Positions 4,971 to 51,765 of a stretch of DNA of 57,157 nt are shown here, piece after piece; positions within the stretch are counted from its first letter, which is position 1; every line of letters starts with the position of its first letter. A model generated the notes under the pieces. That model was not told the origin of the DNA and ran no database searches. It saw nothing but the letters and a program-made list of their open reading frames with translations. The translations under genes and the position numbers were made by a program. The DNA comes from Marinilabiliales bacterium (GTDB lineage: Bacteria; Bacteroidota; Bacteroidia; Bacteroidales; PUMT01). The stretch lies in the NCBI GenBank assembly GCA_007695015.1, contig REEN01000075.1, forward strand, positions 1 to 57,157, given 5' to 3'.

Positions 4971-6317
4971 TTACTTTTTTTGGAATTTCACCGCAAGGAA
5001 CCATACGGGAATACCGGCAGCAAGGATGGAGACGCCTGCCAGGGCGCCGATCCCGGTAAAAACAAGGCTTGAATAGAGCATGTAGATGCATGCCGCAAGG
5101 AACAGCAGCGGCGGCAGCGGGTAGAGTGGAACTTTGTACGATCCGCTGAGGCCCTCCTTCCTGAGTCTGAAAACAAACAGGCTTAGCGTGGTGAGGGCCA
5201 GGAAGAACCAGAAAACCGGCGCGGTGTAGTCTACCATCGTGCTCACCGCCTCCTTGGAAAAGGCTCCGGCAACGACCAGTGCCATGGCGATCGATGCCTG
5301 GAAGATGAGGGCGGGTTGGGGACTGTTACGGTGGTGGTTCCATCTGCCCATGAACCCGAACAGCCTGAAGTCGCGCCCTATTGCATAGTTGGTGCGCGCC
5401 CCAGTTATGATTGTTGCATTGGCGGTTGAAAGGGCGGCAACAATGACAATGATAACCACAAGGATTGAGCCTCCGGTGCCGAACACCCTTTCAGTCAGGT
5501 CGTACCCTACCGTTGATGATCCCTGCAAAGTTTCAAAACCGAGCACATGAAGGTAGGCAAGGTTTATCATCACATAGAGCCCGGTAATTATGACAATTCC
5601 AAAGACAAGCGCCCTCACTATGCTTCTTCTGACGTTGCGCAGTTCGCCGGTAAGATAGGCGGCCTCGCTCCATCCTCCATAAGTGAGCAATACGAATATC
5701 ATTGCAGCGCCGGGAGCCCCGCCCGAAAACAGTTGCCCTCCCTTCCCCGAAAGGGTGATCCCGGAAACGGCCTCGCCGGAAGTGAAAAGCAGTGCAGAAA
5801 CACCTATTATAATAATTGTTGCTACAATTACCGATGCCAGTATGCTCTGGGTGCGGCTTGAATGGATGGTGCCCATGATGTTCAGGCCGGTAAGCGCCAT
5901 CACAGCCAGCGCGGCATATATCGACGGACTGTAGGGGCCGAGGTTCAGCAGCAGCGAGGCATAGTCGCCCAGAATGAAGGCTATCAGGGCAAGCGAGCCG
6001 GTCTGTATGACCGTCATCCTGCCCCAGGAGAGGAAGAACCCTGTCGCGGGACCGAATGCCTTCCTGAGGAAATAGTACTCGCCTCCTGAATCGGGCATGG
6101 AAGAAGATAGTTCGGCATAACAGAGCGCCCCCATCAGTGAGACGAGTCCCCCGAAAACCCAGAAAAGGATGAACTGAAGCTCGCCTGCAGAATTGAGCGC
6201 CACGATCGGCGGAAGACGGAAGATCCCTATGCCAACAACGATGCCGACCACTACAGCCATTGAGCTGAGCGTGGTGAAAGTGGGAGCCGGTCTCGAACCG
6301 CCGGCGGACTGTGTCAT
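4971..6317 (-). CDS. APC family amino acid permease
   Basis: A 448-residue integral membrane protein with about twelve hydrophobic segments. The first helix contains the APC-superfamily glycine-rich motif (VVGIVVGIGIFRLPP), followed by the conserved FWVFGGLVSLMGALCYAELSSSMPDSGGEYYFL block that places it in the LAT/amino-acid-permease branch (YAEL, P-x-SGGEY). It should move an amino acid or polyamine across the inner membrane with a proton or by exchange; specificity cannot be read. Its start codon overlaps the stop of the upstream methyltransferase-like gene as ATGA, showing translational coupling. Confidence 0.9.
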   Translation of the reverse strand: MTQSAGGSRPAPTFTTLSSMAVVVGIVVGIGIFRLPPIVALNSAGELQFILFWVFGGLVSLMGALCYAELSSSMPDSGGEYYFLRKAFGPATGFFLSWGRMTVIQTGSLALIAFILGDYASLLLNLGPYSPSIYAALAVMALTGLNIMGTIHSSRTQSILASVIVATIIIIGVSALLFTSGEAVSGITLSGKGGQLFSGGAPGAAMIFVLLTYGGWSEAAYLTGELRNVRRSIVRALVFGIVIITGLYVMINLAYLHVLGFETLQGSSTVGYDLTERVFGTGGSILVVIIVIVAALSTANATIITGARTNYAIGRDFRLFGFMGRWNHHRNSPQPALIFQASIAMALVVAGAFSKEAVSTMVDYTAPVFWFFLALTTLSLFVFRLRKEGLSGSYKVPLYPLPPLLFLAACIYMLYSSLVFTGIGALAGVSILAAGIPVWFLAVKFQKK

Positions 6318-7132
6318 CGTCCGGTCAGGGTAGCGGACCAGTTTTCAACTATCCGCGAATTGGTGCCGCGAATAAGAGCCTTACCGTCAATCGTGCCATC
6401 ATTGACGCTGCCGCTGAAGACATAACGCTCTCCGCTGCTACGGTCAAGCGCGGTAAAGCTGATCCTCTCTCCGTTCAGGCTGGGGTTTTCAATTGTTAGC
6501 GGACGGCCGCCGGCACTGAGATTGACGGTTATTTTCTGGTACTCCTGGTTTACCTCCATGGAGAAGCCCCTGCCGTTGGTGCTCCAGCCCCATCTGCCCC
6601 TGGCATTGGCCGGGATCACCCAGTAATATACATGGCGGTTATCTATCACCAGGTGCTCATCGGCTTCCCACCTGCCCATGCTGAAACTATGAGAAACAAT
6701 CCGGGTACCCGGTTTCAGAACTTCCAGGAGCACGGGCTTCAGGCGAAGGTTGACGGAGCTCAGCAGGTACATCGTTATTACTGTTGCATTGCTTATGTCA
6801 GCCTCGAAAAGGTCTCCTTCAATAAACACCACCCTGTCGTTTACCCTTGCATTAGATGCATTTTCTTCGGCCTCTTTTACCCGCACCGGGTTGAGATCGA
6901 TACCGTGTCCGAATGCTCCCCTCTGTGCAGCTGCGATGACAATCCTGCCATCACCGGATCCGAGGTCAATAACGTAATCGCCGGGGCCGACTCCGGTTAC
7001 ATCAAGCATCGCATCAACCACATCATATGGTGTGGGAACATAGGGCACATCAAGGTGCTGGGCGCCCGTCGTGCCTGCAATACCAAACAGGGCGGCTGCA
7101 GCCGGCAGGATAAATAGCAGTAATCTTCTCAT
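6314..7132 (-). CDS. Exported class I SAM methyltransferase-like protein
   Basis: The 272-residue product begins with a clear Sec signal peptide (MRRLLLFILPAAAALFGIAG, probable cleavage after TTGAQ) and then carries a class I methyltransferase core: motif I DLGSGDGR at 56-63, an acidic beta-2 end (GIDLNP) and a motif-II-like GDLF. The spacing and the phrase 'YVPTP..VVDAML' recall the FAM173/ATPSCKMT lysine-methyltransferase group. A C-terminal beta-rich segment of about 80 residues follows. Catalysis outside the cytoplasm would need SAM there, which is unusual; the signal could instead act as an anchor. It is coupled to the permease gene by a 4-base overlap. Confidence 0.8.
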   Translation of the reverse strand: MRRLLLFILPAAAALFGIAGTTGAQHLDVPYVPTPYDVVDAMLDVTGVGPGDYVIDLGSGDGRIVIAAAQRGAFGHGIDLNPVRVKEAEENASNARVNDRVVFIEGDLFEADISNATVITMYLLSSVNLRLKPVLLEVLKPGTRIVSHSFSMGRWEADEHLVIDNRHVYYWVIPANARGRWGWSTNGRGFSMEVNQEYQKITVNLSAGGRPLTIENPSLNGERISFTALDRSSGERYVFSGSVNDGTIDGKALIRGTNSRIVENWSATLTGR

Positions 7133-31219: not shown

Positions 31220-32320
31220 TTAATTTGCAATTTCATAACTTGTACTCCTGCCACCACTCTCTGATTTCATCAATATACCTTTATCAATTAAATCCTGAAT
31301 ATCCCTTAATGCAGTATCTTGCGAACACTTGTTCATCTTTGCCCATTTACTTGTAGTTAATTTACCTTCAATGCCATCCAGAAGCTTGTTTAATACTTTC
31401 TTTTGCCGGTCATTTTCAAGAAGCAGGGCATTTTTATTCCAAAAATCGTGCTTGAAAATTACCTTTTGTAAGATTATTTGAGATGATTCCAAAGCACGTA
31501 ACAGGCAATTTAAAAACCAGTCTAACCAGTCTGTTACATCTAATGACCCCTTCTGTGATTTTTCTAAATTTTCATAATATGCCTTTCTTTCATTCCTTAT
31601 TTGCGTAGACATACTATAAAACCTTTGAGGCTGACCATCGGATTGAGCTAATATCATATCAGTAATTGCCCTTGCAATGCGTCCATTTCCATCCTCAAAA
31701 GGATGCAGGGTAATAAACCAAAGATGGGCTAATCCTGCTTTTACAACCAAATCTAATTTTGGATTTTGATTCACCCACTCAAGGAAGCATTCCATCTCTG
31801 CTTCAAGATTCGAAGCTTCTGGTGCTTGAAAATGCACCTTTTCTTTTCCCGGAGCACCAGAAACTACTTGCATCGGTCCGGTAGAATCATCCCGCCATTT
31901 GCCGGCCAGTACTTTGTAAAGACCGCTATATCCAGAAGGAAAAAGGGAATTGTGCCACCCAAATAACCTCTCTTTCGTCAGAGGCCGATCAAAATTGCCA
32001 GATGCATCCATCATCATATCAACAATTCCATCTACATTCCTGTCTGATGGGACCAGTCCGGAAATATCCAAACCTAATCGCCTGGCAATGGATGAGCGGA
32101 CTTGTTTAAAATCCAATATTTCTCCTTCAATCTCTGATGATTTTATTACATCCATGGTCAGAGTTTCTAATACAGCCTGATTGACAAGATCAAAACCAAG
32201 GGCATTCATTCTGCCAACTATTTTCCCTTGAAGGTTTCTAACCTTACCTAATAAATGTAAAAGCTTTTCATTCTGCCAGTAAAAGTTAGGCCAATCAGTA
32301 TGTTGATAGATATACGCCAT
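31220..32320 (-). CDS. Fic family protein with DUF4172-type N-terminus and winged helix
   Basis: The 366-residue protein contains the Fic active site HPFEDGNGR (206-214) used to transfer AMP or another nucleotide to a target hydroxyl. Residues 61-66 (SSEIEG) fit the inhibitory helix motif S/TxxxE(G/N), so it is a self-inhibited class II Fic. The first 45 residues match DUF4172 (Fic N-terminal), and the last 80 look like a winged helix (LTTSKWAKMNKCSQDTALRDIQDLIDKGIL) that could bind DNA and repress its own gene. Base composition is clearly more AT-rich than either neighbour, suggesting transfer. Confidence 0.92.
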   Translation of the reverse strand: MAYIYQHTDWPNFYWQNEKLLHLLGKVRNLQGKIVGRMNALGFDLVNQAVLETLTMDVIKSSEIEGEILDFKQVRSSIARRLGLDISGLVPSDRNVDGIVDMMMDASGNFDRPLTKERLFGWHNSLFPSGYSGLYKVLAGKWRDDSTGPMQVVSGAPGKEKVHFQAPEASNLEAEMECFLEWVNQNPKLDLVVKAGLAHLWFITLHPFEDGNGRIARAITDMILAQSDGQPQRFYSMSTQIRNERKAYYENLEKSQKGSLDVTDWLDWFLNCLLRALESSQIILQKVIFKHDFWNKNALLLENDRQKKVLNKLLDGIEGKLTTSKWAKMNKCSQDTALRDIQDLIDKGILMKSESGGRSTSYEIAN

Positions 32321-44275: not shown

Positions 44276-45361
44276 ATGCCCGATAACCAAGGCCGGTCCT
44301 GGCTGGACAGGATCCACCGGGGAGATTGTGTTGAACTGCTGAAAGAGCTGCCTGACAGTTCAGTAGACCTTGTTTTTGCCGATCCGCCATATAATCTTCA
44401 GCTGGGAGGTGACCTTTACAGGCCCGATCAGACGAAGGTCAGTGCAGTGAACGATGTATGGGACAGGTTCAGTTCACTGGAGGAGTACGATAAATTCACC
44501 CTGGCATGGACCGTTGAATGCAGGAGGGTTCTCAGGGATACAGGCAGCTTCTGGGTTATCGGCACTTACCATAATATTTTCAGGCTGGGAAAGATCCTCC
44601 AGGACATTGGGTTCTGGATACTCAATGATATAGTCTGGGTCAAAACCAACCCAATGCCAAATTTCATGGGCACCAGGTTCAGCAATGCACACGAGACCCT
44701 TATCTGGGCCGCCAGGTCGGCCAACTCCAGGTATACATTCCATTACCACTCAATGAAGGTGATGAATGACGACCTGCAGATGCGCAGCGACTGGCTCATA
44801 CCTGTCTGCCAGGGAAGCGAGAGGATCAAGGCCAACGGCCGGAAGGCGCACTCCACCCAGAAGCCGGAGGAGCTGCTGCAAAGGGTGATACTGTCCACAA
44901 CCAATCCGGGAGATACGGTGCTCGACCCCTTTTCAGGCAGCGGCACAACAGCAGCAGTGGCCAAAAGGCTGGGCAGGAGATATATCGCCTTAGAGCGTGA
45001 GCAGGAATACATAAAGATAGCAAATGACCGTCTTGAAAAGGTTGAACCGCTTGACAGCCCCCTGCTCGAATACCATGTCGGAAGAAAAAGACCCAGGGTG
45101 CCCTTTGGCAGTCTCGTTGAAAAGGGGCTTGTGGCCATCGGCGAACCGCTTTACTCCGCCGACAGAAAATACAGTGCCCTTGTGCTGGCAGACGCCTCTG
45201 TATTGTGCAACGGCATAGCAGGCTCCATTCACAAAGTCAGCGCTGAACTGCTGAACAGGGAAAAGAATAACGGCTGGAATTACTGGTATGTGGAACGGAA
45301 CGGCGAGCTGGTCATTATTGACAAACTTCGCGACGAATACGCCAGGCAGTTTATAAAGTAG
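44276..45361 (+). CDS. ccrM: CcrM-type adenine-N6 DNA methyltransferase (GANTC specificity expected)
   Basis: The 361-residue beta-class methyltransferase has DPPY at 36-39 in VDLVFADPPYNLQLGGDLYRP and the SAM motif FSGSG at 219-223. The central region is strikingly like Caulobacter CcrM (WVIGTYHNIFRLG, GFWILNDIVWVKTNPMPNFMGTRF, HETLIWAARS, QMRSDWLIPVC). The C-terminal 95 residues correspond to the CcrM/HinfI-type tail domain (RVPFGSLVEKGLVAIGEPLY ... GSIHKVSAELL ... NGWNYWYVE). No restriction enzyme is adjacent, so it is an orphan. It probably forms an operon with the alternative oxidase; its last 11 bases overlap the convergent downstream gene. Confidence 0.92.
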   Translation: MPDNQGRSWLDRIHRGDCVELLKELPDSSVDLVFADPPYNLQLGGDLYRPDQTKVSAVNDVWDRFSSLEEYDKFTLAWTVECRRVLRDTGSFWVIGTYHNIFRLGKILQDIGFWILNDIVWVKTNPMPNFMGTRFSNAHETLIWAARSANSRYTFHYHSMKVMNDDLQMRSDWLIPVCQGSERIKANGRKAHSTQKPEELLQRVILSTTNPGDTVLDPFSGSGTTAAVAKRLGRRYIALEREQEYIKIANDRLEKVEPLDSPLLEYHVGRKRPRVPFGSLVEKGLVAIGEPLYSADRKYSALVLADASVLCNGIAGSIHKVSAELLNREKNNGWNYWYVERNGELVIIDKLRDEYARQFIK

Positions 45362-47804
45362 CTGAGCCAGCCTTGCTGCTCCTCCGAACTGCAAACATCA
45401 GCATTGCCAGTCCGCTCACCTTGAACATCACAATCACCAGCGAAGTCTGTACCAGTCCGAGTACCGGCAGCAATACCACCCCGCCCAGGATACCGCCTAT
45501 CCATCCTCCCCAAAGATCGGCACTATAGAGCAATCCGGCGGTACCACCCAGGTCGCCCGACATCTTCATGTACTCCCTGTTGGCAAGTGGAAACTCAGCC
45601 CCCACGAGCAGACCCGACAAAAAGGAGAGTACCAGGAATACGATCCTGAGCAGGAGATCAAACCAGGGATGAACCAGGAGTGGTGCAGAAAATATGAATA
45701 TCCAAGGGAGTACCAAAGCAAAAAGTATAATCAACATCTCCAGCCTGATGATGCCGGGCAGCGCGCTATCCATACTCTTAAGACGCCGTGCCATCCATAT
45801 TCCACCGGCAGCCACACCTGCCATAAACGCCGTAACAAGCAGTCCGAGCCAGTAAAAAATATAGCCAAACATCACCTGGAAGGCAAAGATCAGGATGAGG
45901 TCGAACAGCATGCCGGCAAAACCGGTTGAGACGATACAGACCGACAGCGCGGGCCTCAAAGGTTGCTTCAGGCGTGAAGAGTAAGCCAGTGCCAAACCGG
46001 TCAGCACCAGGAAAACAATTGACATCATCCAAACGCTTATCCCTTCACTTTGCCTGAAAATCCTGTTGAACGACGGCGAGAACTTCTCGTTCCACCAGAC
46101 AAGGCTGTAAAAAACACCCAGCGGCCTGAAATCACGGTTAATGATGCTGCCGGCATGCCCTAGATTGTCGCTGAACCATTCCAGCCACCTCTCATGCAGC
46201 CTGTACTCAAGGTAGCCGGGGGTTATCAAGCTGAATGTGATGCCGCGTTCAGTCGCCCTCTCCATCATAGTTCCGGCATCAACAATGTCGCCGGTAACCG
46301 AAGATGAAGCAAGGTAGAGGTTTATTCCGTCGCCGGGTATAACCCTCACAACATTGAATACATCCTCCAGTGTTGCAAGCACCAGTCCGTTAAGCACAGC
46401 AAGCTCCGGACTCATGTATGTAAGCGACCCCGGCAGGGCGAGCACAAAAAGTCCTTCCTGCGAAAGCTTGCTTTCAGCAATAGAAAAAAACTCACGGGTA
46501 AAAAACCTGTTCGACTGCAGTGAAGAGGGATCTGTAAATCCGCTGAATATCAGATCATAGCTCTGTTCAGTACGTTTCAGGAAGAACCGTCCGTCGGCAT
46601 ACCTCACTTTAACACGCTCATCTCCAAGTTCGCGGTTGGTAAGCGAAGTGGGGAACCTGCCGATAACCTCGGGAATAAGCGGGTCAACCTCGGCATAATC
46701 AACCCTGTGCACACCGTGCTTCAGTATCTCGCTCACAACACCGCCGGCTCCGCCGCTCAGCACCAGGATCTCCCGCGGATCAGGATGTGACAGCATAGGG
46801 AAGTGCACGAACTCCTCAATAAAGACAATATCCGGATTGGGCGTGGTTATCACCGGCAGTCCGTCCGAAAAAAAGGTATACTCCTGCATACTCTCCACAA
46901 CCACGATATTGCCGTAATGTGAATTCTGGTAATGCACAACGTTCTGCCCTCTCCATTGCCTGTTGACCGAATTTTCATGCAGGCGGTCGGCTCCTCCCAT
47001 GAACACCAGGTTACCTGAAAGGAGGATCAGGGCAGAAAGCACCACCCATCCCCCCCGGTCTGCAAAAGATGCTGCCGGACTCCGGAACGGCTTCAGCAAC
47101 CAGGCACAAACAGCGAAGTTAAAAAGGGCGGTCAGAACGGCTATTTTCACGGAGTGAAGATGAGGTATCAGCAGGTAAGTCAGTACCAGTCCCCCAACCA
47201 GCGTCCCCACCGTCTCATAGATGTAGACACTGGCAATGCTTCCCGCCTCGTGCCCGGAATCATTATCGCCGCAGCTGTCATCACCCCGTCCGCCAAAACG
47301 GCCGGCATCGTGTCCGGCATCCTGCTCCCCGTTTTTGACCTCACCCTGAACGGTCCCCTGCCCGCCAGTCTCCCCCTCTCTGCCGGGTAACGCCAGCTGG
47401 GAGTAAAGCCTGCATCCGGCGGTAAAGAGCGCCCCGTGCATCACGCTCACGGGAAGCAGAATAAGGAACGAAACGTAGAACATAGGCATTATGCCAAGGC
47501 CCTCTCCCGGCACAAGGTCCAGGAACTCCTTGAACACCCTTGCACAGTAAACGGCAGCAGGGAAAAACAGCGAAAACAGCACGGTCACACCTATGAACAG
47601 CAACCTCCGTTGAGGCGAATACGCGATCCTCCTGCCAAGGAAAAAAGCACCTGCCGCCTCAAGCAGCATCCAGTTGGCCAGCACCACGCCAATGGAAAGC
47701 TCATTACCGTGAAAAGCCACCATAAGCTCCCGCAGCAGCACTATCTGCGCTACCAGTCCGCTAAACCCCATCAACACAACTGCAGAAACAATTTTTCGCT
47801 TCAT
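45351..47804 (-). CDS. Membrane protein with central spermidine-synthase-like domain
   Basis: An 817-residue protein: a membrane block (about 1-250), a soluble class I Rossmann domain of the spermidine-synthase type (about 320-520; LVLSGGAGGVVSEIL, VDYAEVDPLI, VRYADGRFFL) and a second membrane block (about 590-800). In aminopropyltransferases the general base lies in a VDSTDP-like motif; here it reads FSGFTDP, with Gly in place of the catalytic Asp, so ordinary spermidine synthesis is doubtful. A Gly/Asp/His-rich insert (about 145-190) interrupts the first membrane block. It follows three radical SAM genes on the same strand after 143 bases. Confidence 0.85.
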   Translation of the reverse strand: MKRKIVSAVVLMGFSGLVAQIVLLRELMVAFHGNELSIGVVLANWMLLEAAGAFFLGRRIAYSPQRRLLFIGVTVLFSLFFPAAVYCARVFKEFLDLVPGEGLGIMPMFYVSFLILLPVSVMHGALFTAGCRLYSQLALPGREGETGGQGTVQGEVKNGEQDAGHDAGRFGGRGDDSCGDNDSGHEAGSIASVYIYETVGTLVGGLVLTYLLIPHLHSVKIAVLTALFNFAVCAWLLKPFRSPAASFADRGGWVVLSALILLSGNLVFMGGADRLHENSVNRQWRGQNVVHYQNSHYGNIVVVESMQEYTFFSDGLPVITTPNPDIVFIEEFVHFPMLSHPDPREILVLSGGAGGVVSEILKHGVHRVDYAEVDPLIPEVIGRFPTSLTNRELGDERVKVRYADGRFFLKRTEQSYDLIFSGFTDPSSLQSNRFFTREFFSIAESKLSQEGLFVLALPGSLTYMSPELAVLNGLVLATLEDVFNVVRVIPGDGINLYLASSSVTGDIVDAGTMMERATERGITFSLITPGYLEYRLHERWLEWFSDNLGHAGSIINRDFRPLGVFYSLVWWNEKFSPSFNRIFRQSEGISVWMMSIVFLVLTGLALAYSSRLKQPLRPALSVCIVSTGFAGMLFDLILIFAFQVMFGYIFYWLGLLVTAFMAGVAAGGIWMARRLKSMDSALPGIIRLEMLIILFALVLPWIFIFSAPLLVHPWFDLLLRIVFLVLSFLSGLLVGAEFPLANREYMKMSGDLGGTAGLLYSADLWGGWIGGILGGVVLLPVLGLVQTSLVIVMFKVSGLAMLMFAVRRSSKAGSATL

Positions 47805-47947: not shown

Positions 47948-49153
47948 TCAGCTCCACACCCCGGGAATTGGATGGCTGCATGATGCACACCTGCCGTCAC
48001 TTATGTTGTTCTCAGTCACCTTGAAATGGACCCGCTTAATAAGCATCCCGTCACACCTGGGACAGAATGTGGAGTTATATTCATGTCCGGGAACATTACC
48101 CAGGGTAACATAATCAAGTCCGGCCCTCCTTGCAGTGTCAAAAGCCCTTTCAAGGGTTGCCACAGGTGTGGGCGAAAGGTTGGTAAGCTTGTAATTGGGG
48201 AAGAACCGGGAAAGATGGAGCGGCACCTCAGGCGAAAGTGTGTCCTTTATCCAGGTACACATCTCCCCTATCTCCGCCATCGAATCGTTCACTCCCGGTA
48301 TCACCAGGTTAACTATCTCGAGCCATACGCCCTCCTCCCTGATGATCTTCAGCGTTTCCAGCACCGGCTCAAGCTCGGCCGACGAGTTGTCATAGGCCCT
48401 TTTCGAAAAACCCTTCAGGTCGATCGTCACCGCATCGGTATGATGCAGAATCTCAACCAGCGGCTCAGGCTTCATGTAGCCGTTTGAGTGCCACAGTATC
48501 TTAAACCCCTCCCGCCTTGCTATCCTGGCCGTATCAAGTACATACTCATAAAAGACAGTCGGCTCGTTATAGGTGGACGAGATAATGCTCACACCAAGTT
48601 CCCGGGCGGTATTTACAACATCGCGCGGAGGCAGGTCATGGTAGCGTCCTATCTCTTCGATCGACCGCTGCGACAGGTGCCAGTTATGACAATGCAGGCA
48701 CCTGAAATTGCACCCCGCCGTACCGATGCTCAGCATCTCGGCCCCCGGCAGCAGGTGGTGCTGGGGCTCCTTCTCCACCGGATCGACATGAACCGCCGAC
48801 GGCCTGCCGTAAACCACGTTATACAAGCTTCCCCCGCTGTTTTCCCTGTTGCGGCAGAACCCCCTTCTGCCCGGGGCAATAACACAGTTGCGGTAGCACA
48901 GCTCACATCGCACCCTGTTCCTGTCGGCCACCGAATAGTACATCGCCTCTATTCCCTCCGGATTCTCATTAATAATTTCGCTTTCGCGGAAGTCCGCGCC
49001 ACCCCTGTCAGACGGCAGCAGGGTTGCAGCCGCCAGGGCAGGACCATCACGTAACCTGCCCCGTACACCGCTCAGCAGCATACATCCCGCCGATACGGCG
49101 GCAGCGCCGCCAAGCACTGCCTTGACAATAAATTCACGCCGGCTCTTTGTCAT
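47948..49153 (-). CDS. Radical SAM protein, AmmeMemoRadiSam type, Tat/lipobox N-terminus (copy 1)
   Basis: The 401-residue protein begins with a twin-arginine motif SRREFIVK, a hydrophobic stretch and a lipobox-like VSAGC (Cys24). The radical SAM cluster motif is Cys148-x3-Cys152-x2-Cys155 in GCNFRCLHCHNW. Before it lies an extra cysteine set (Cys83, 86, 90, 100 in CELCYRNC...GFC) and at the C-terminus a zinc-ribbon-like pair of CxxC (CPRCDG, CASCSH). This is the AmrS/'AmmeMemoRadiSam system radical SAM enzyme' architecture, related to pyruvate-formate-lyase activases. No Memo or AMMECR1 gene is adjacent. Last of three tandem paralogues, 22 bases after copy 2. Confidence 0.9.
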   Translation of the reverse strand: MTKSRREFIVKAVLGGAAAVSAGCMLLSGVRGRLRDGPALAAATLLPSDRGGADFRESEIINENPEGIEAMYYSVADRNRVRCELCYRNCVIAPGRRGFCRNRENSGGSLYNVVYGRPSAVHVDPVEKEPQHHLLPGAEMLSIGTAGCNFRCLHCHNWHLSQRSIEEIGRYHDLPPRDVVNTARELGVSIISSTYNEPTVFYEYVLDTARIARREGFKILWHSNGYMKPEPLVEILHHTDAVTIDLKGFSKRAYDNSSAELEPVLETLKIIREEGVWLEIVNLVIPGVNDSMAEIGEMCTWIKDTLSPEVPLHLSRFFPNYKLTNLSPTPVATLERAFDTARRAGLDYVTLGNVPGHEYNSTFCPRCDGMLIKRVHFKVTENNISDGRCASCSHPIPGVWS

Positions 49154-49175
49154 AATGATTCATTTTATGTCGTTG

Positions 49176-50426
49176 TCATTGTTCATCCCAAATGCCTGCT
49201 ATCCGGAAACCACAGCCACCGCACCTCCCGTTCACCATATCGATATCAAGCACCGCCACGTGGGTGCGGTGTATCAGCCTTGTCCCGCATTGAGGGCACC
49301 ACGTGGAGCTGTTCCTGTGTTTTGCCACATTACCGATATACACATATTTCAGTCCCCGTCCGTTAGCAATCCCGGCCGCATCCTCCAGTGTTTCAACGGG
49401 AGTGTGCGGCAGTCCCGTCAGCCGGTACGAAGGAGAGAACCTGTTGAAATGGAGCGGCACGTCGTCGCCCAGGTTTTCTGCAATCCACGAGCACATGGCC
49501 TCAATATGGCCCCGGTCATCGTTCAGGGTGGGTATGACCAGGTTCACTATTTCGAGGTGTACCCTCTCCTGCCTTATTATCCTGAGGGATTCAAGTACCG
49601 GGCCGGGTTCAGCCGACGACACTTCATGGTAGAAATCCGGACTGAACCCTTTAAGGTCGACCGTAACCCCGTCCATAAACGGCAGCAGCCTCCGCAGGGG
49701 TTGGGGACTGATATAGCCGTTGGTATGGAAAAGGGTCATCAGTCCCCGCTCCTTTGCAAGCCCGGCTATATCGTACATGTATTCATAAAAGATAGTGGGC
49801 TCGTTTATGCTGTGCGAAACCGACCTGCACCCGCGCCTTACGGCCTCGCCCACCACGCCTGCCGGGGTGATCTCAGATGATGCAACTTCTTCAGGACCCC
49901 TCTGTGAAACGTGCCAGTTGTGGCAGTGTCTGCATCTGAAGTTGCATGAAGCGGTAAAGACGCACAGGTTGCTGTGTCCCGGCACCATGTGGTACATCGG
50001 TTCCATCTCCACCGGATCAACCTGCAGTCCGGCCGGCCTGCCGTACACCAGGCTGAACAGCGTTCCCCTCCTGTTCTCCCTCACCCGGCAGAACCCCCTC
50101 CTGCCCTGCCCTATCTCACACCTGCGGGCACACAGCTCACACCTCACCCTGTTGCCGTTAAGCCGGGTATAGAACATAGCTTCCCTGCCTGCTGAAATGC
50201 CGGAATTGTAAGAGTCCCGCGAAACCCGCCCTGATGCCGGTCCTTTCACCCCCGGAGAAACAGCGGCTTCGGGCAGGTGGGAATACCCGGTAGTCTCCAG
50301 GAGCGAATCCACTGTTCCCTGCAGAAAGGGATTCGCACCCCCCGGCACAATGCAGCCGGCAGCCATCGCGGCAGCACAGCCCCTGGCAGCCTTTGCAATA
50401 AACCTCCTGCGGCTCCTGTCTGTCAT
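49176..50426 (-). CDS. Radical SAM protein, AmmeMemoRadiSam type, Tat/lipobox N-terminus (copy 2)
   Basis: From the chosen ATG the product is 416 residues; the longer frame adds 36 residues that would bury the Tat signal. It opens with SRRRFIAK and a lipobox-like MAAGC (Cys25), then a spacer, the CELCARRC...GFC cysteine set, the cluster motif in SCNFRCRHCHNW, and the C-terminal CPQCG ... CGGCGF pairs. Same organisation as copies 1 and 3, differing mainly in the N-terminal 75 residues. It likely activates a glycyl radical or modifies a protein or small molecule; target unknown. Confidence 0.9.
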   Translation of the reverse strand: MTDRSRRRFIAKAARGCAAAMAAGCIVPGGANPFLQGTVDSLLETTGYSHLPEAAVSPGVKGPASGRVSRDSYNSGISAGREAMFYTRLNGNRVRCELCARRCEIGQGRRGFCRVRENRRGTLFSLVYGRPAGLQVDPVEMEPMYHMVPGHSNLCVFTASCNFRCRHCHNWHVSQRGPEEVASSEITPAGVVGEAVRRGCRSVSHSINEPTIFYEYMYDIAGLAKERGLMTLFHTNGYISPQPLRRLLPFMDGVTVDLKGFSPDFYHEVSSAEPGPVLESLRIIRQERVHLEIVNLVIPTLNDDRGHIEAMCSWIAENLGDDVPLHFNRFSPSYRLTGLPHTPVETLEDAAGIANGRGLKYVYIGNVAKHRNSSTWCPQCGTRLIHRTHVAVLDIDMVNGRCGGCGFRIAGIWDEQ

Positions 50427-50475
50427 AAACCAGCAGATCAGTGTGCCCGGCCTCCTGGTACCCGGGCAACGGTTT

Positions 50476-51765
50476 CTATACTTCCCAGATACCGCGTATC
50501 GCATAACCGCAGTACCTGCATTTACCATTTTCAATATTGTTCTCCAGCACCGTAAAATGGGTGCGGTGAATAAGCCTTTCGTCGCACCGCCCGCAATACG
50601 TTGAATTATTCATGTGGCCGGGAACATTGCCTATATACACGTACTGCAGGCCGCTTCCGAGCGCGGTGCCGATTGCAGCCTCCAGGGTCCTTACCGGGGT
50701 CGGGGGCAGGTTAGTGAGCCGGTATGAAGGAGCGAACCTGGTAAAGTGGACCGGCACGTCCCTTCCCAGGTTGCCGGCTATCCATTCACACATCATTCTG
50801 ATCTCACCCGGATCATCGTTGAGCGTTGGCACCACGAGGCACACGATCTCAAAAAAAGCATCCTCCTCCCTGAGCAACTTTAGTGTCTGCAGCACGGGAT
50901 CAAGCCTGGCCGACGAGATTTCGCGGTAAAACGAATCGCTGAACGCCTTCAGGTCTATCTTCACCGCATCGAGGTATGGCAGCAGCCTTCGCATCGGTTC
51001 GGGGTTTATGTACCCGTTGGATACTATGCTTGTTTTGAGTCCCCTCTCCTTTGCCAGCCTGCTTATATCATGAACATATTCATAAAATATTGTTGGCTCT
51101 GTATAGGTGAACGAGATGGAACGCACTCCATGCCTTGCTGCCTCATCGACAATCTGTGAAGCGCTCATCCGCAGCTCCCTCACCTCGCCGGGTGCCCGTT
51201 GCGAAATGTGCCAGTTATGGCAGTACCTGCACCTGAGGTTGCAGCCTACCGTGGCAAGGCACAATCGCCGGTGGCCGGGCACAAAATGGTACAGGGGCGC
51301 CTTTTCTATCGGACCGGTATCGACCGTGCAGGGCCTGCCGTAAACCATGCTGTACAATGTGCCGCGCCTGTTTTGCCTCACCCTGCAGAATCCGCTGTTG
51401 CCGGGCTCAATTTTGCAACGGTGCGGACAAAGCTGGCATTGCACCAAGTTATTGTCAAGCTTGCGGTAAAACATCGCCTCAGTGCCACCGGTGCCCTGCG
51501 CCTGTTGCACATCACCGCGCCCGCTGTGCCCACCGGCTGATTCTCCACGCCCCATGTCCCCGCCAGCAAAATCACCCTGCAGGCCACCCTCCCCGGGTGC
51601 CCTTAAAGAGCTTCCTGAGCTGCTACCCGGAGCCCCCCTGCCAGGTCCCGGATTGCCGGTTGCCGTTGCAACACCCCTGACGAACGGCAGGCACCCCAGG
51701 GAGATAAACCCTGCACACCCGATAAAAGCTTTTTTGACAAAACTACGCCGGCGCTGACAGTTCAT
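50476..51765 (-). CDS. Radical SAM protein, AmmeMemoRadiSam type, Tat/lipobox N-terminus (copy 3)
   Basis: The 429-residue protein is the first gene of the tandem trio. It has QRRRSFVKK, a hydrophobic stretch with ISLGC (Cys25), then a Gly/Ser/Arg-rich linker (about 33-90) not found in its paralogues. Next come CQLCPHRC...GFC, the cluster motif in GCNLRCRYCHNW and the C-terminal CGRCDE ... CRYCGY pairs. All cluster residues are intact in all three copies, so none is a pseudogene. A 202-base gap separates it from the porin gene upstream. Confidence 0.9.
   Translation of the reverse strand: MNCQRRRSFVKKAFIGCAGFISLGCLPFVRGVATATGNPGPGRGAPGSSSGSSLRAPGEGGLQGDFAGGDMGRGESAGGHSGRGDVQQAQGTGGTEAMFYRKLDNNLVQCQLCPHRCKIEPGNSGFCRVRQNRRGTLYSMVYGRPCTVDTGPIEKAPLYHFVPGHRRLCLATVGCNLRCRYCHNWHISQRAPGEVRELRMSASQIVDEAARHGVRSISFTYTEPTIFYEYVHDISRLAKERGLKTSIVSNGYINPEPMRRLLPYLDAVKIDLKAFSDSFYREISSARLDPVLQTLKLLREEDAFFEIVCLVVPTLNDDPGEIRMMCEWIAGNLGRDVPVHFTRFAPSYRLTNLPPTPVRTLEAAIGTALGSGLQYVYIGNVPGHMNNSTYCGRCDERLIHRTHFTVLENNIENGKCRYCGYAIRGIWEV

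Follow-up and report, generated by a model that had tools for sequence, protein, structure and literature searches.

Predicted Tat-exported radical SAM lipoproteins and a membrane partner point to a probable extracytoplasmic AmmeMemoRadiSam-type system in a Marinilabiliales bacterium

Radical S-adenosylmethionine (SAM) chemistry is regarded as cytoplasmic, since both SAM and strong reductants are found there. AmmeMemoRadiSam-type enzymes (TIGR04337) are paired with Memo (PF01875) and AMMECR1 (PF01871) in relatives of the organism studied here, and we know of no established bacterial function for either partner. We analysed a 57,157-nucleotide contig of a Marinilabiliales bacterium (REEN01000075.1, assembly GCA_007695015.1; the window), which encodes three tandem radical SAM enzymes, rS1, rS2 and rS3, next to MFS-SpdS, a membrane protein with a predicted major facilitator superfamily (MFS) fold and a spermidine-synthase-like (SpdS-like) domain. 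All three enzymes exceed the curated TIGR04337 cut-off of 220 bits (354.1, 336.7 and 335.5 bits, respectively). By family the system is an AmmeMemoRadiSam variant, set apart by its export signals, its MFS-SpdS, its three enzyme copies and the signal-bearing partner fusion of its relatives, and by AMMECR1 not being found in its own genome. We consider it probable (about 0.62) that rS1–rS3 are lipoproteins exported by twin-arginine translocation (Tat), and form the radical SAM part of an AmmeMemoRadiSam system located outside the cytoplasm, with MFS-SpdS as membrane partner. The basis in sequence comprises the predicted signals, the CxxxCxxC motifs, the co-occurrence of signal and MFS-SpdS, an apparently exported fusion in relatives and a separate signal-less enzyme copy beside Memo. 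The MFS fold, the outer-face position of the SpdS-like domain and the loss of aminopropyltransferase residues are predictions. Among the open-access literature matches listed, we found no radical SAM system described in such a location and, in titles and abstract openings, no exported AmmeMemoRadiSam enzyme or link to MFS-SpdS.

Parts of the locus also resemble other described proteins. The AlphaFold core of rS1, the one enzyme compared, has the fold of pyruvate formate-lyase-activating enzyme (3c8f; E 7.1e-15, template-modelling score 0.79 by target length); rS1 differs from it in having N- and C-terminal Cys-rich parts and a predicted exported N-terminus. MFS-SpdS shares its Spermine_synth domain with proteins annotated 'fused MFS/spermidine synthase' (NF037959; 60.9 bits, cut-off 40). 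Unlike a spermidine synthase, it lacks the acid of the GxG(D/E)G motif and the first Asp of DSTDP, and its domain is predicted to lie outside. The fungal seven-transmembrane (7TM) His-methyltransferase NHMT is, by description, likewise a membrane protein with an SpdS-like domain that lacks the acid for binding decarboxylated SAM (dcSAM), and it acts on secreted proteins; it has one 7TM part, and the portion of the source cited here mentions no radical SAM partner (PMC10349129). Flavinylated carriers of the NosR/PceC type, as far as the cited parts of PMC5928378 and PMC8238504 describe them, are mirrored in the FMN_bind and Fer4_5 domains fused to MFS-SpdS in some relatives; Pfam finds neither domain in the window's MFS-SpdS.

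The four genes lie on the minus strand in the order rS1, rS2, rS3, MFS-SpdS, separated by 49, 22 and 143 bases (Table 1). A reading made from the sequence alone had placed three adjacent, intact paralogues at 47948-51765, each with a CxxxCxxC motif, an RRxF motif and a lipobox Cys. The span is correct, on the minus strand, and the TIGR04337 scores and a scan of the N-termini confirm the description. The N-termini are MNCQRRRSFVKKAFIGCAGFISLGC in rS1 (lipobox Cys25), MTDRSRRRFIAKAARGCAAAMAAGC in rS2 (lipobox Cys25) and MTKSRREFIVKAVLGGAAAVSAGC in rS3 (lipobox Cys24). The open reading frame listed for rS2 had 452 residues and began at an upstream TTG overlapping rS1; its start was moved to 50426.

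Table 1. Features of the cluster in the window, and the loci of split-form MFS-SpdS proteins in relatives
Feature	Position	Strand
rS1, exported-type radical SAM enzyme (TIGR04337), 429 residues, CNLRCRYC	50476-51765	minus
rS2, exported-type radical SAM enzyme, 416 residues, CNFRCRHC, start corrected	49176-50426	minus
rS3, exported-type radical SAM enzyme, 401 residues, CNFRCLHC	47948-49153	minus
MFS-SpdS, membrane protein with predicted MFS fold and inserted spermidine-synthase-like domain, 817 residues	45351-47804	minus
rS1 predicted Tat-type signal and lipobox, residues 1-25	51691-51765	minus
rS2 predicted Tat-type signal and lipobox, residues 1-25	50352-50426	minus
rS3 predicted Tat-type signal and lipobox, residues 1-24	49082-49153	minus
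MFS-SpdS spermidine-synthase-like domain region, residues 270-589, predicted outer face	46038-46997	minus
Split-form MFS-SpdS loci	L226:8450-12280, L225:8732-12508, L223:9148-13122, L218:7826-12190, L220:9032-12910, L227:7996-10932, L224:5528-8134	

Among the 40 window genes of at least 150 residues, RRx[FLIVMY] followed by a hydrophobic stretch and a lipobox occurs in rS1, rS2 and rS3 only; gene 6314-7132 has the same pattern without the lipobox. One of the listed reading frames did have a wrong start, which would favour dismissing the signals as chance or start-codon artefacts. We reject that explanation as having a negligible chance of being right, since shuffled N-termini meet the pattern in under 1% of cases for each enzyme (0.5% for rS1, 0.3% for rS2 and 0.7% for rS3; 20,000 trials) and the signals recur across families and phyla. 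In an alignment of 29 enzymes, hand-picked and mostly of exported types, conservation reaches at least 90% both at the second Arg (R7) and at the Phe (F9). Because these rows were hand-picked, an unpicked tally of 55 exported-clade N-termini is the fairer guide: it gives RR in 27, KR in 18, RI in one and no motif in nine, with some letters doubtful (the RR of genome G038 has a weak hydrophobic part, and one RR of G375 and the KR of G065 belong to Sec-like N-termini). The nine without a motif include Sec- or lipoprotein-type N-termini in one G375 enzyme, G377 and G381. TatC is encoded in the own genome. The assignment of the three N-termini as Tat-type export signals with a lipobox is thus supported, and comparison backs predicted export.

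We compared the distribution of signals with that of MFS-SpdS. In 296 Bacteroidota genomes, TIGR04337 matches at 1e-50 in 67 and MFS-SpdS exceeds 270 bits in eight, the next match scoring 152 bits; one of the eight, in G198, is a fragment in a genome with no TIGR04337 match. MFS-SpdS is present in seven of the 67 TIGR04337 genomes, and all six readable ones carry a signal-bearing enzyme (in G176 a contig end truncates the module copy). Of the remaining 60 genomes, 58 are readable (G161 is cut and G185 interrupted). Hydrophobicity stays under the threshold of 1.2 in 57 of them, and no clear signal was seen in any of the 58, as G279 exceeds 1.2 only from an upstream TTG. The Fisher p of 9e-8, with G279 counted as positive, is nominal, as the genomes are related and the threshold was chosen after the first signal results. 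An order-level sample of 80 genomes gave a similar picture: 45 of the own and sample genomes were rescanned, and 22 outside the window's family have an exported-clade enzyme. MFS-SpdS accompanies the enzyme in 17 of 17 genomes with a signal and in none of the five without (G038, G044, G051, G058 and G077; p 4e-5), G051 having an ordinary 117-bit MFS-SpdS match that is not of the module type. Cytoplasmic-type copies in G041 and G056 show a hydrophobic stretch only from an upstream start. Besides the three module proteins, gene clusters common to at least three loci occurred only among loci of the window's family. By sequence, then, the predicted signal goes with MFS-SpdS in the sampled Bacteroidota.

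These comparisons favour the export proposed in the sequence-only reading, through the conserved signal, its replacement by Sec or lipoprotein-type N-termini in some phyla and the link to MFS-SpdS in the sampled Bacteroidota. That reading had overlooked MFS-SpdS, the strongest candidate for the SAM supply that was unaccounted for. Homologues lacking the RR segment, which it had named as grounds for abandoning export, do exist; they are not decisive, because the five in the order sample also lack MFS-SpdS, and the three of these five with a readable Memo-AMMECR1 fusion have a signal-less one.

A fusion of Memo and AMMECR1 (PF01875 and PF01871) was found in many relatives. In the order sample it bears a signal, always of Sec or lipoprotein type, in all 15 readable genomes whose enzyme has one, and in none of three whose enzyme is signal-less; this count leaves out G042 and G072, which are cut, and G051 and G058, which have no AMMECR1. 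The own genome encodes one Memo, judged signal-less from its neighbourhood and N-terminus, which adjoins a fourth, signal-less TIGR04337 copy on another contig. AMMECR1 had no match in this genome (98.5% complete) or in 15 other genomes of the family, several of them incomplete. The earlier observation that the usual partners are absent holds within the window; elsewhere in the genome Memo is located beside the fourth copy, and AMMECR1 was not found. As a general rule, partners that are simply missing were rejected, since relatives have a Memo-AMMECR1 fusion that appears exported; the partner appears to have been lost in the window's family. The signal on the fusion also bears on the alternative that the enzymes remain cytoplasmic, with the N-terminus a mere membrane tether and MFS-SpdS exporting the reaction product. 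The established cytoplasmic location of SAM and strong reductants is in keeping with this arrangement, as are homologues without a signal, split forms (described below) included. We nevertheless judge it unlikely: with Arg/Lys ahead of the hydrophobic segment, the catalytic domain is predicted to lie outside, RRxF together with a lipobox exceeds the needs of a tether, and the fusion itself carries a signal in all 15 readable order-sample genomes with a signal-bearing enzyme.

The enzymes themselves appear to be intact. CxxxCxxC is complete in all three, and the 29 aligned rows show no variation in the motif or in many of the core residues around it. Over aligned parts, rS1–rS3 share about 46-58% identity with one another and 40-44% with the fourth copy (contig C57). 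The nearest named record, from a Bacteroidales metagenome-assembled genome (MAG; locus L039), is 83% identical to rS1 over its best segment. In the rS1 model, residues 4-21 form a low-confidence helix, most of residues 22-91 have a confidence score (pLDDT) below 50 and the core is confident from about residue 92, a profile that fits a tethered lipoprotein. It is also conceivable, if improbable, that exported proteins of this kind perform no SAM radical chemistry outside and serve as carriers of clusters or metals, as sensors or as binding proteins. SAM transport is unproven, and no electron donor was identified in the own genome, which was not searched genome-wide, leaving some room for such roles. 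The invariance of CxxxCxxC and of many core residues speaks for catalysis instead, as does the co-occurrence with a protein that holds a SAM-type nucleoside fold.

When 63 enzymes were placed in a tree, the 13 copies of cytoplasmic type clustered in a single supported group (100/99), separate from the exported clade; the tree omitted duplicate loci, L044, rows below 200 bits, fragments under 250 residues (including that of G007) and later-fetched sequences. rS1, rS2 and rS3 fall into separate groups, each including rows from other phyla: a PVC MAG is near rS1 and rS2, and Omnitrophota and Atribacterota MAGs are near rS3. The three paralogue types are therefore old, and have probably been transferred between phyla. 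The triplet is intact in the own genome and in G014, contig ends interrupt it in G011 and G015, and doublets occur elsewhere (G004, G008 with a contig end near, G028, G374, G375 and G376).

MFS-SpdS is predicted to consist of two six-helix halves with the SpdS-like domain between helices 7 and 8. Averaged over 22 sequences, Lys plus Arg (K+R) near the membrane amount to 3.96, 3.9, 2.77, 3.03 and 3.16 in loops 2, 4, 6, 8 and 10, to 1.23 and 1.94 in loops 0 and 12, and to 0.05-1.68 in the short odd loops. This alternation of K/R-rich loops places the domain on the outer face. The average called 13 helices, which left the last segment with 3.98 K+R; one more helix, read by eye within 736-774, has to be assumed as the 14th because a cytoplasmic C-terminus needs it. 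Single-sequence counts of helices before the domain were noisy (seven in 8, eight to ten in 21 and six in 1 of 30), so the topology rests on the 22-sequence average, on the single helix found between the domain and helix 9 in 28 of 30, and on the MFS match. Helices 1-6 are repeated in helices 9-14 (hhalign 98.4%). The AlphaFold model (mean pLDDT 81, pTM 0.81) superposes on the MFS exporter NorA (Z 26.2, root-mean-square deviation 3.8, 358 aligned) and on an aminopropyltransferase (Z 27.8, deviation 4.0, 300 aligned). Pfam MFS_1 does not match the window protein, and gives 19.7 bits for that of L223, below the cut-off of 33.4.

The SpdS-like domain has lost the residues expected of an aminopropyltransferase. 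The GxG(D/E)G acid is gone in 29 of 30 sequences, where the column is hydrophobic or small (Ala in the window protein); in the remaining one, G065, an Asp aligns there, yet the protein has lost the glycine-rich nucleotide motif and kept the membrane part. The first Asp of DSTDP, which we take to be the catalytic residue, is also missing in 29 of 30 (kept in G042; Gly in the window protein), and the ribose-binding acid is retained (E in 27, D in two). With the dcSAM-binding acid and the presumed catalytic Asp gone, we rejected MFS-SpdS as a true spermidine synthase. Spermidine synthases need the GxG(D/E)G acid to bind dcSAM, and a 7TM enzyme without it methylates secreted proteins, according to the cited part of PMC10349129. 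From the lost acid and this reported role, it is more likely that the domain holds SAM than that it makes spermidine. MFS-SpdS could instead be an outer-face transferase, methyl- or related, that acts on the system's substrate in the manner of NHMT, with SAM arriving by another route. The parallel with NHMT's SpdS-like domain, as described in that source, and the non-acidic column in 29 of 30 agree with such an enzyme, as does the conservation of a second signal-bearing SAM-type enzyme in the window's family; we regard it as possible, if rather doubtful, since NHMT as described has a single 7TM part (PMC10349129), the six-plus-six repeat and the NorA match suggest transport, and G065 kept the membrane part after losing the nucleotide motif.

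That second enzyme is the product of window gene 6314-7132 (minus strand), a class I methyltransferase with a signal peptide. It was matched in 16 of 60 genomes searched, the own included, and 15 of the 16 have a signal-like N-terminus by eye, G042 having another N-terminal part. Because the methyltransferase keeps its signal, the presence of SAM outside the cytoplasm in the window's family is supported, not proven. An adjoining amino acid permease gene (4971-6317, minus strand) possibly encodes a SAM carrier.

For electrons, relatives offer a suggestive comparison. Fer4_5 occurs in the MFS-SpdS of L043. In the phylum of Lentisphaeria genome G382, FMN_bind is present in all six large MFS-SpdS forms scanned, with Fer4_5 in five of them; counted over the seven split forms described below, six have FMN_bind and five of these Fer4_5. 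An N-terminal helical extension with conserved His, found on seven of 30 MFS-SpdS proteins (all three patterns in six; two in G039), may bind heme. These fusions suggest an electron route; the window's MFS-SpdS has no such redox domain by Pfam. The FMN_bind domain of PceC is located outside the membrane, as stated in the cited part of PMC5928378, and radical SAM, Memo, AMMECR1, MFS and spermi- are absent from the main text of the flavinylated-systems survey PMC8238504. Separately, two Tat-type enzymes of one genus (L113:11068-12312 and L114:11839-13080, from G118 and G337) contain CxxCH between signal and core. The motif could bind c-type heme; Pfam finds no cytochrome in the G118 protein, and this is a weak lead.

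Several observations weigh against the extracytoplasmic reading. KR replaces RR in 18 of the 55 tallied N-termini, one enzyme of the tandem pair in G028 is signal-less, and the Sec-type N-termini of some homologues would need the cluster to be inserted outside. The enzyme of G038, placed among the signal-less ones, has RRFVF and a score of 1.09, close to the threshold. Two genomes of the window's family, G007 and G010, encode signal-bearing enzymes and no MFS-SpdS was found in either, their clusters lying on contigs of 6,176 and 3,087 bases. Signal-bearing fusions were found with no exported enzyme or MFS-SpdS at L123:6686-8206 (G041), L125:5953-7500 (G018) and L129:6807-8309 (G075), and in G061 a fusion occurs with a cut MFS-SpdS and no enzyme was found. 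No electron donor was identified in the own genome, for which no genome-wide search was made, and donors of heme or flavin type may lack the reducing power that a radical SAM cluster requires. Last, homologues without RR do sit with MFS-SpdS in seven genomes of G382's phylum, where the enzyme is signal-less (G414, G437, G532, G543, G544, G550 and G562).

In that phylum, MFS-SpdS matches at 1e-40 in 30 of 194 genomes, 27 over most of the profile, and TIGR04337 is present in 29 of 29 rescanned (G511, a partial match of 143 bits, was omitted). Ten genomes combine a signal-bearing enzyme with a tail-less MFS-SpdS (G382, G392, G422, G434, G453, G477, G492, G506, G521 and G567); G524, with a signal and its tail not read, is counted apart. 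The seven signal-less enzymes have 322-331 residues and begin right before the first Cys motif, and in L226 the start of the enzyme core is preceded, ten codons upstream, by a stop codon. All seven of the accompanying MFS-SpdS proteins, the split forms, end in a helix followed by a tail of the pattern LSx(R/H)(E/K)Ax(Y/F)(Y/F), which resembles the N-terminal element that the enzyme lacks and is placed outside by helix parity in each, after two or three miscalled helices were corrected by eye. This likeness suggests that the enzyme and MFS-SpdS form a physical complex. A signal could be read on the fusion in four of the seven (G414, G437, G532 and G544), and the route by which a signal-less core would leave the cytoplasm is unexplained. 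G500 and G559 have signal-less enzymes of 325 residues, tails not read, and ten of the 30 genomes were left unassigned (G394, G402, G438, G447, G450, G496, G497, G511, G530 and G533).

If the extracytoplasmic reading is right, each enzyme would fold and take up its cluster in the cytoplasm, cross the membrane folded via Tat and then be lipid-anchored by a flexible linker at the outer face of the inner membrane. MFS-SpdS would bring SAM to that face or hold it there, a membrane redox module of the kind joined to MFS-SpdS in some relatives would supply electrons, and the target would be a periplasmic or envelope substrate. The window's family would have lost the Memo-AMMECR1 partner and kept the radical SAM enzyme as up to three paralogue types. 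The complete machine, in which Tat-exported enzymes, an exported fusion in many lineages, SAM moved or dispensed by MFS-SpdS and a redox module all come together, is a tentative proposal to which we give somewhat less than an even chance.

Elsewhere in the window, 44276-45361 (plus strand) encodes a CcrM-like adenine methyltransferase with a RAMA domain, scoring 558 bits against the NCBIfam CcrM cut-off of 830, and 31220-32320 (minus strand) encodes a Fic-domain protein with DUF4172.

The full machine, if true, would mean that these bacteria use SAM as a cofactor in the periplasm. An exported version that is conserved and has a membrane partner of its own would turn the presence and delivery of periplasmic SAM into a testable question. 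The exported lineage would also offer a handle on the function of Memo and AMMECR1, whose substrate would be an envelope component.

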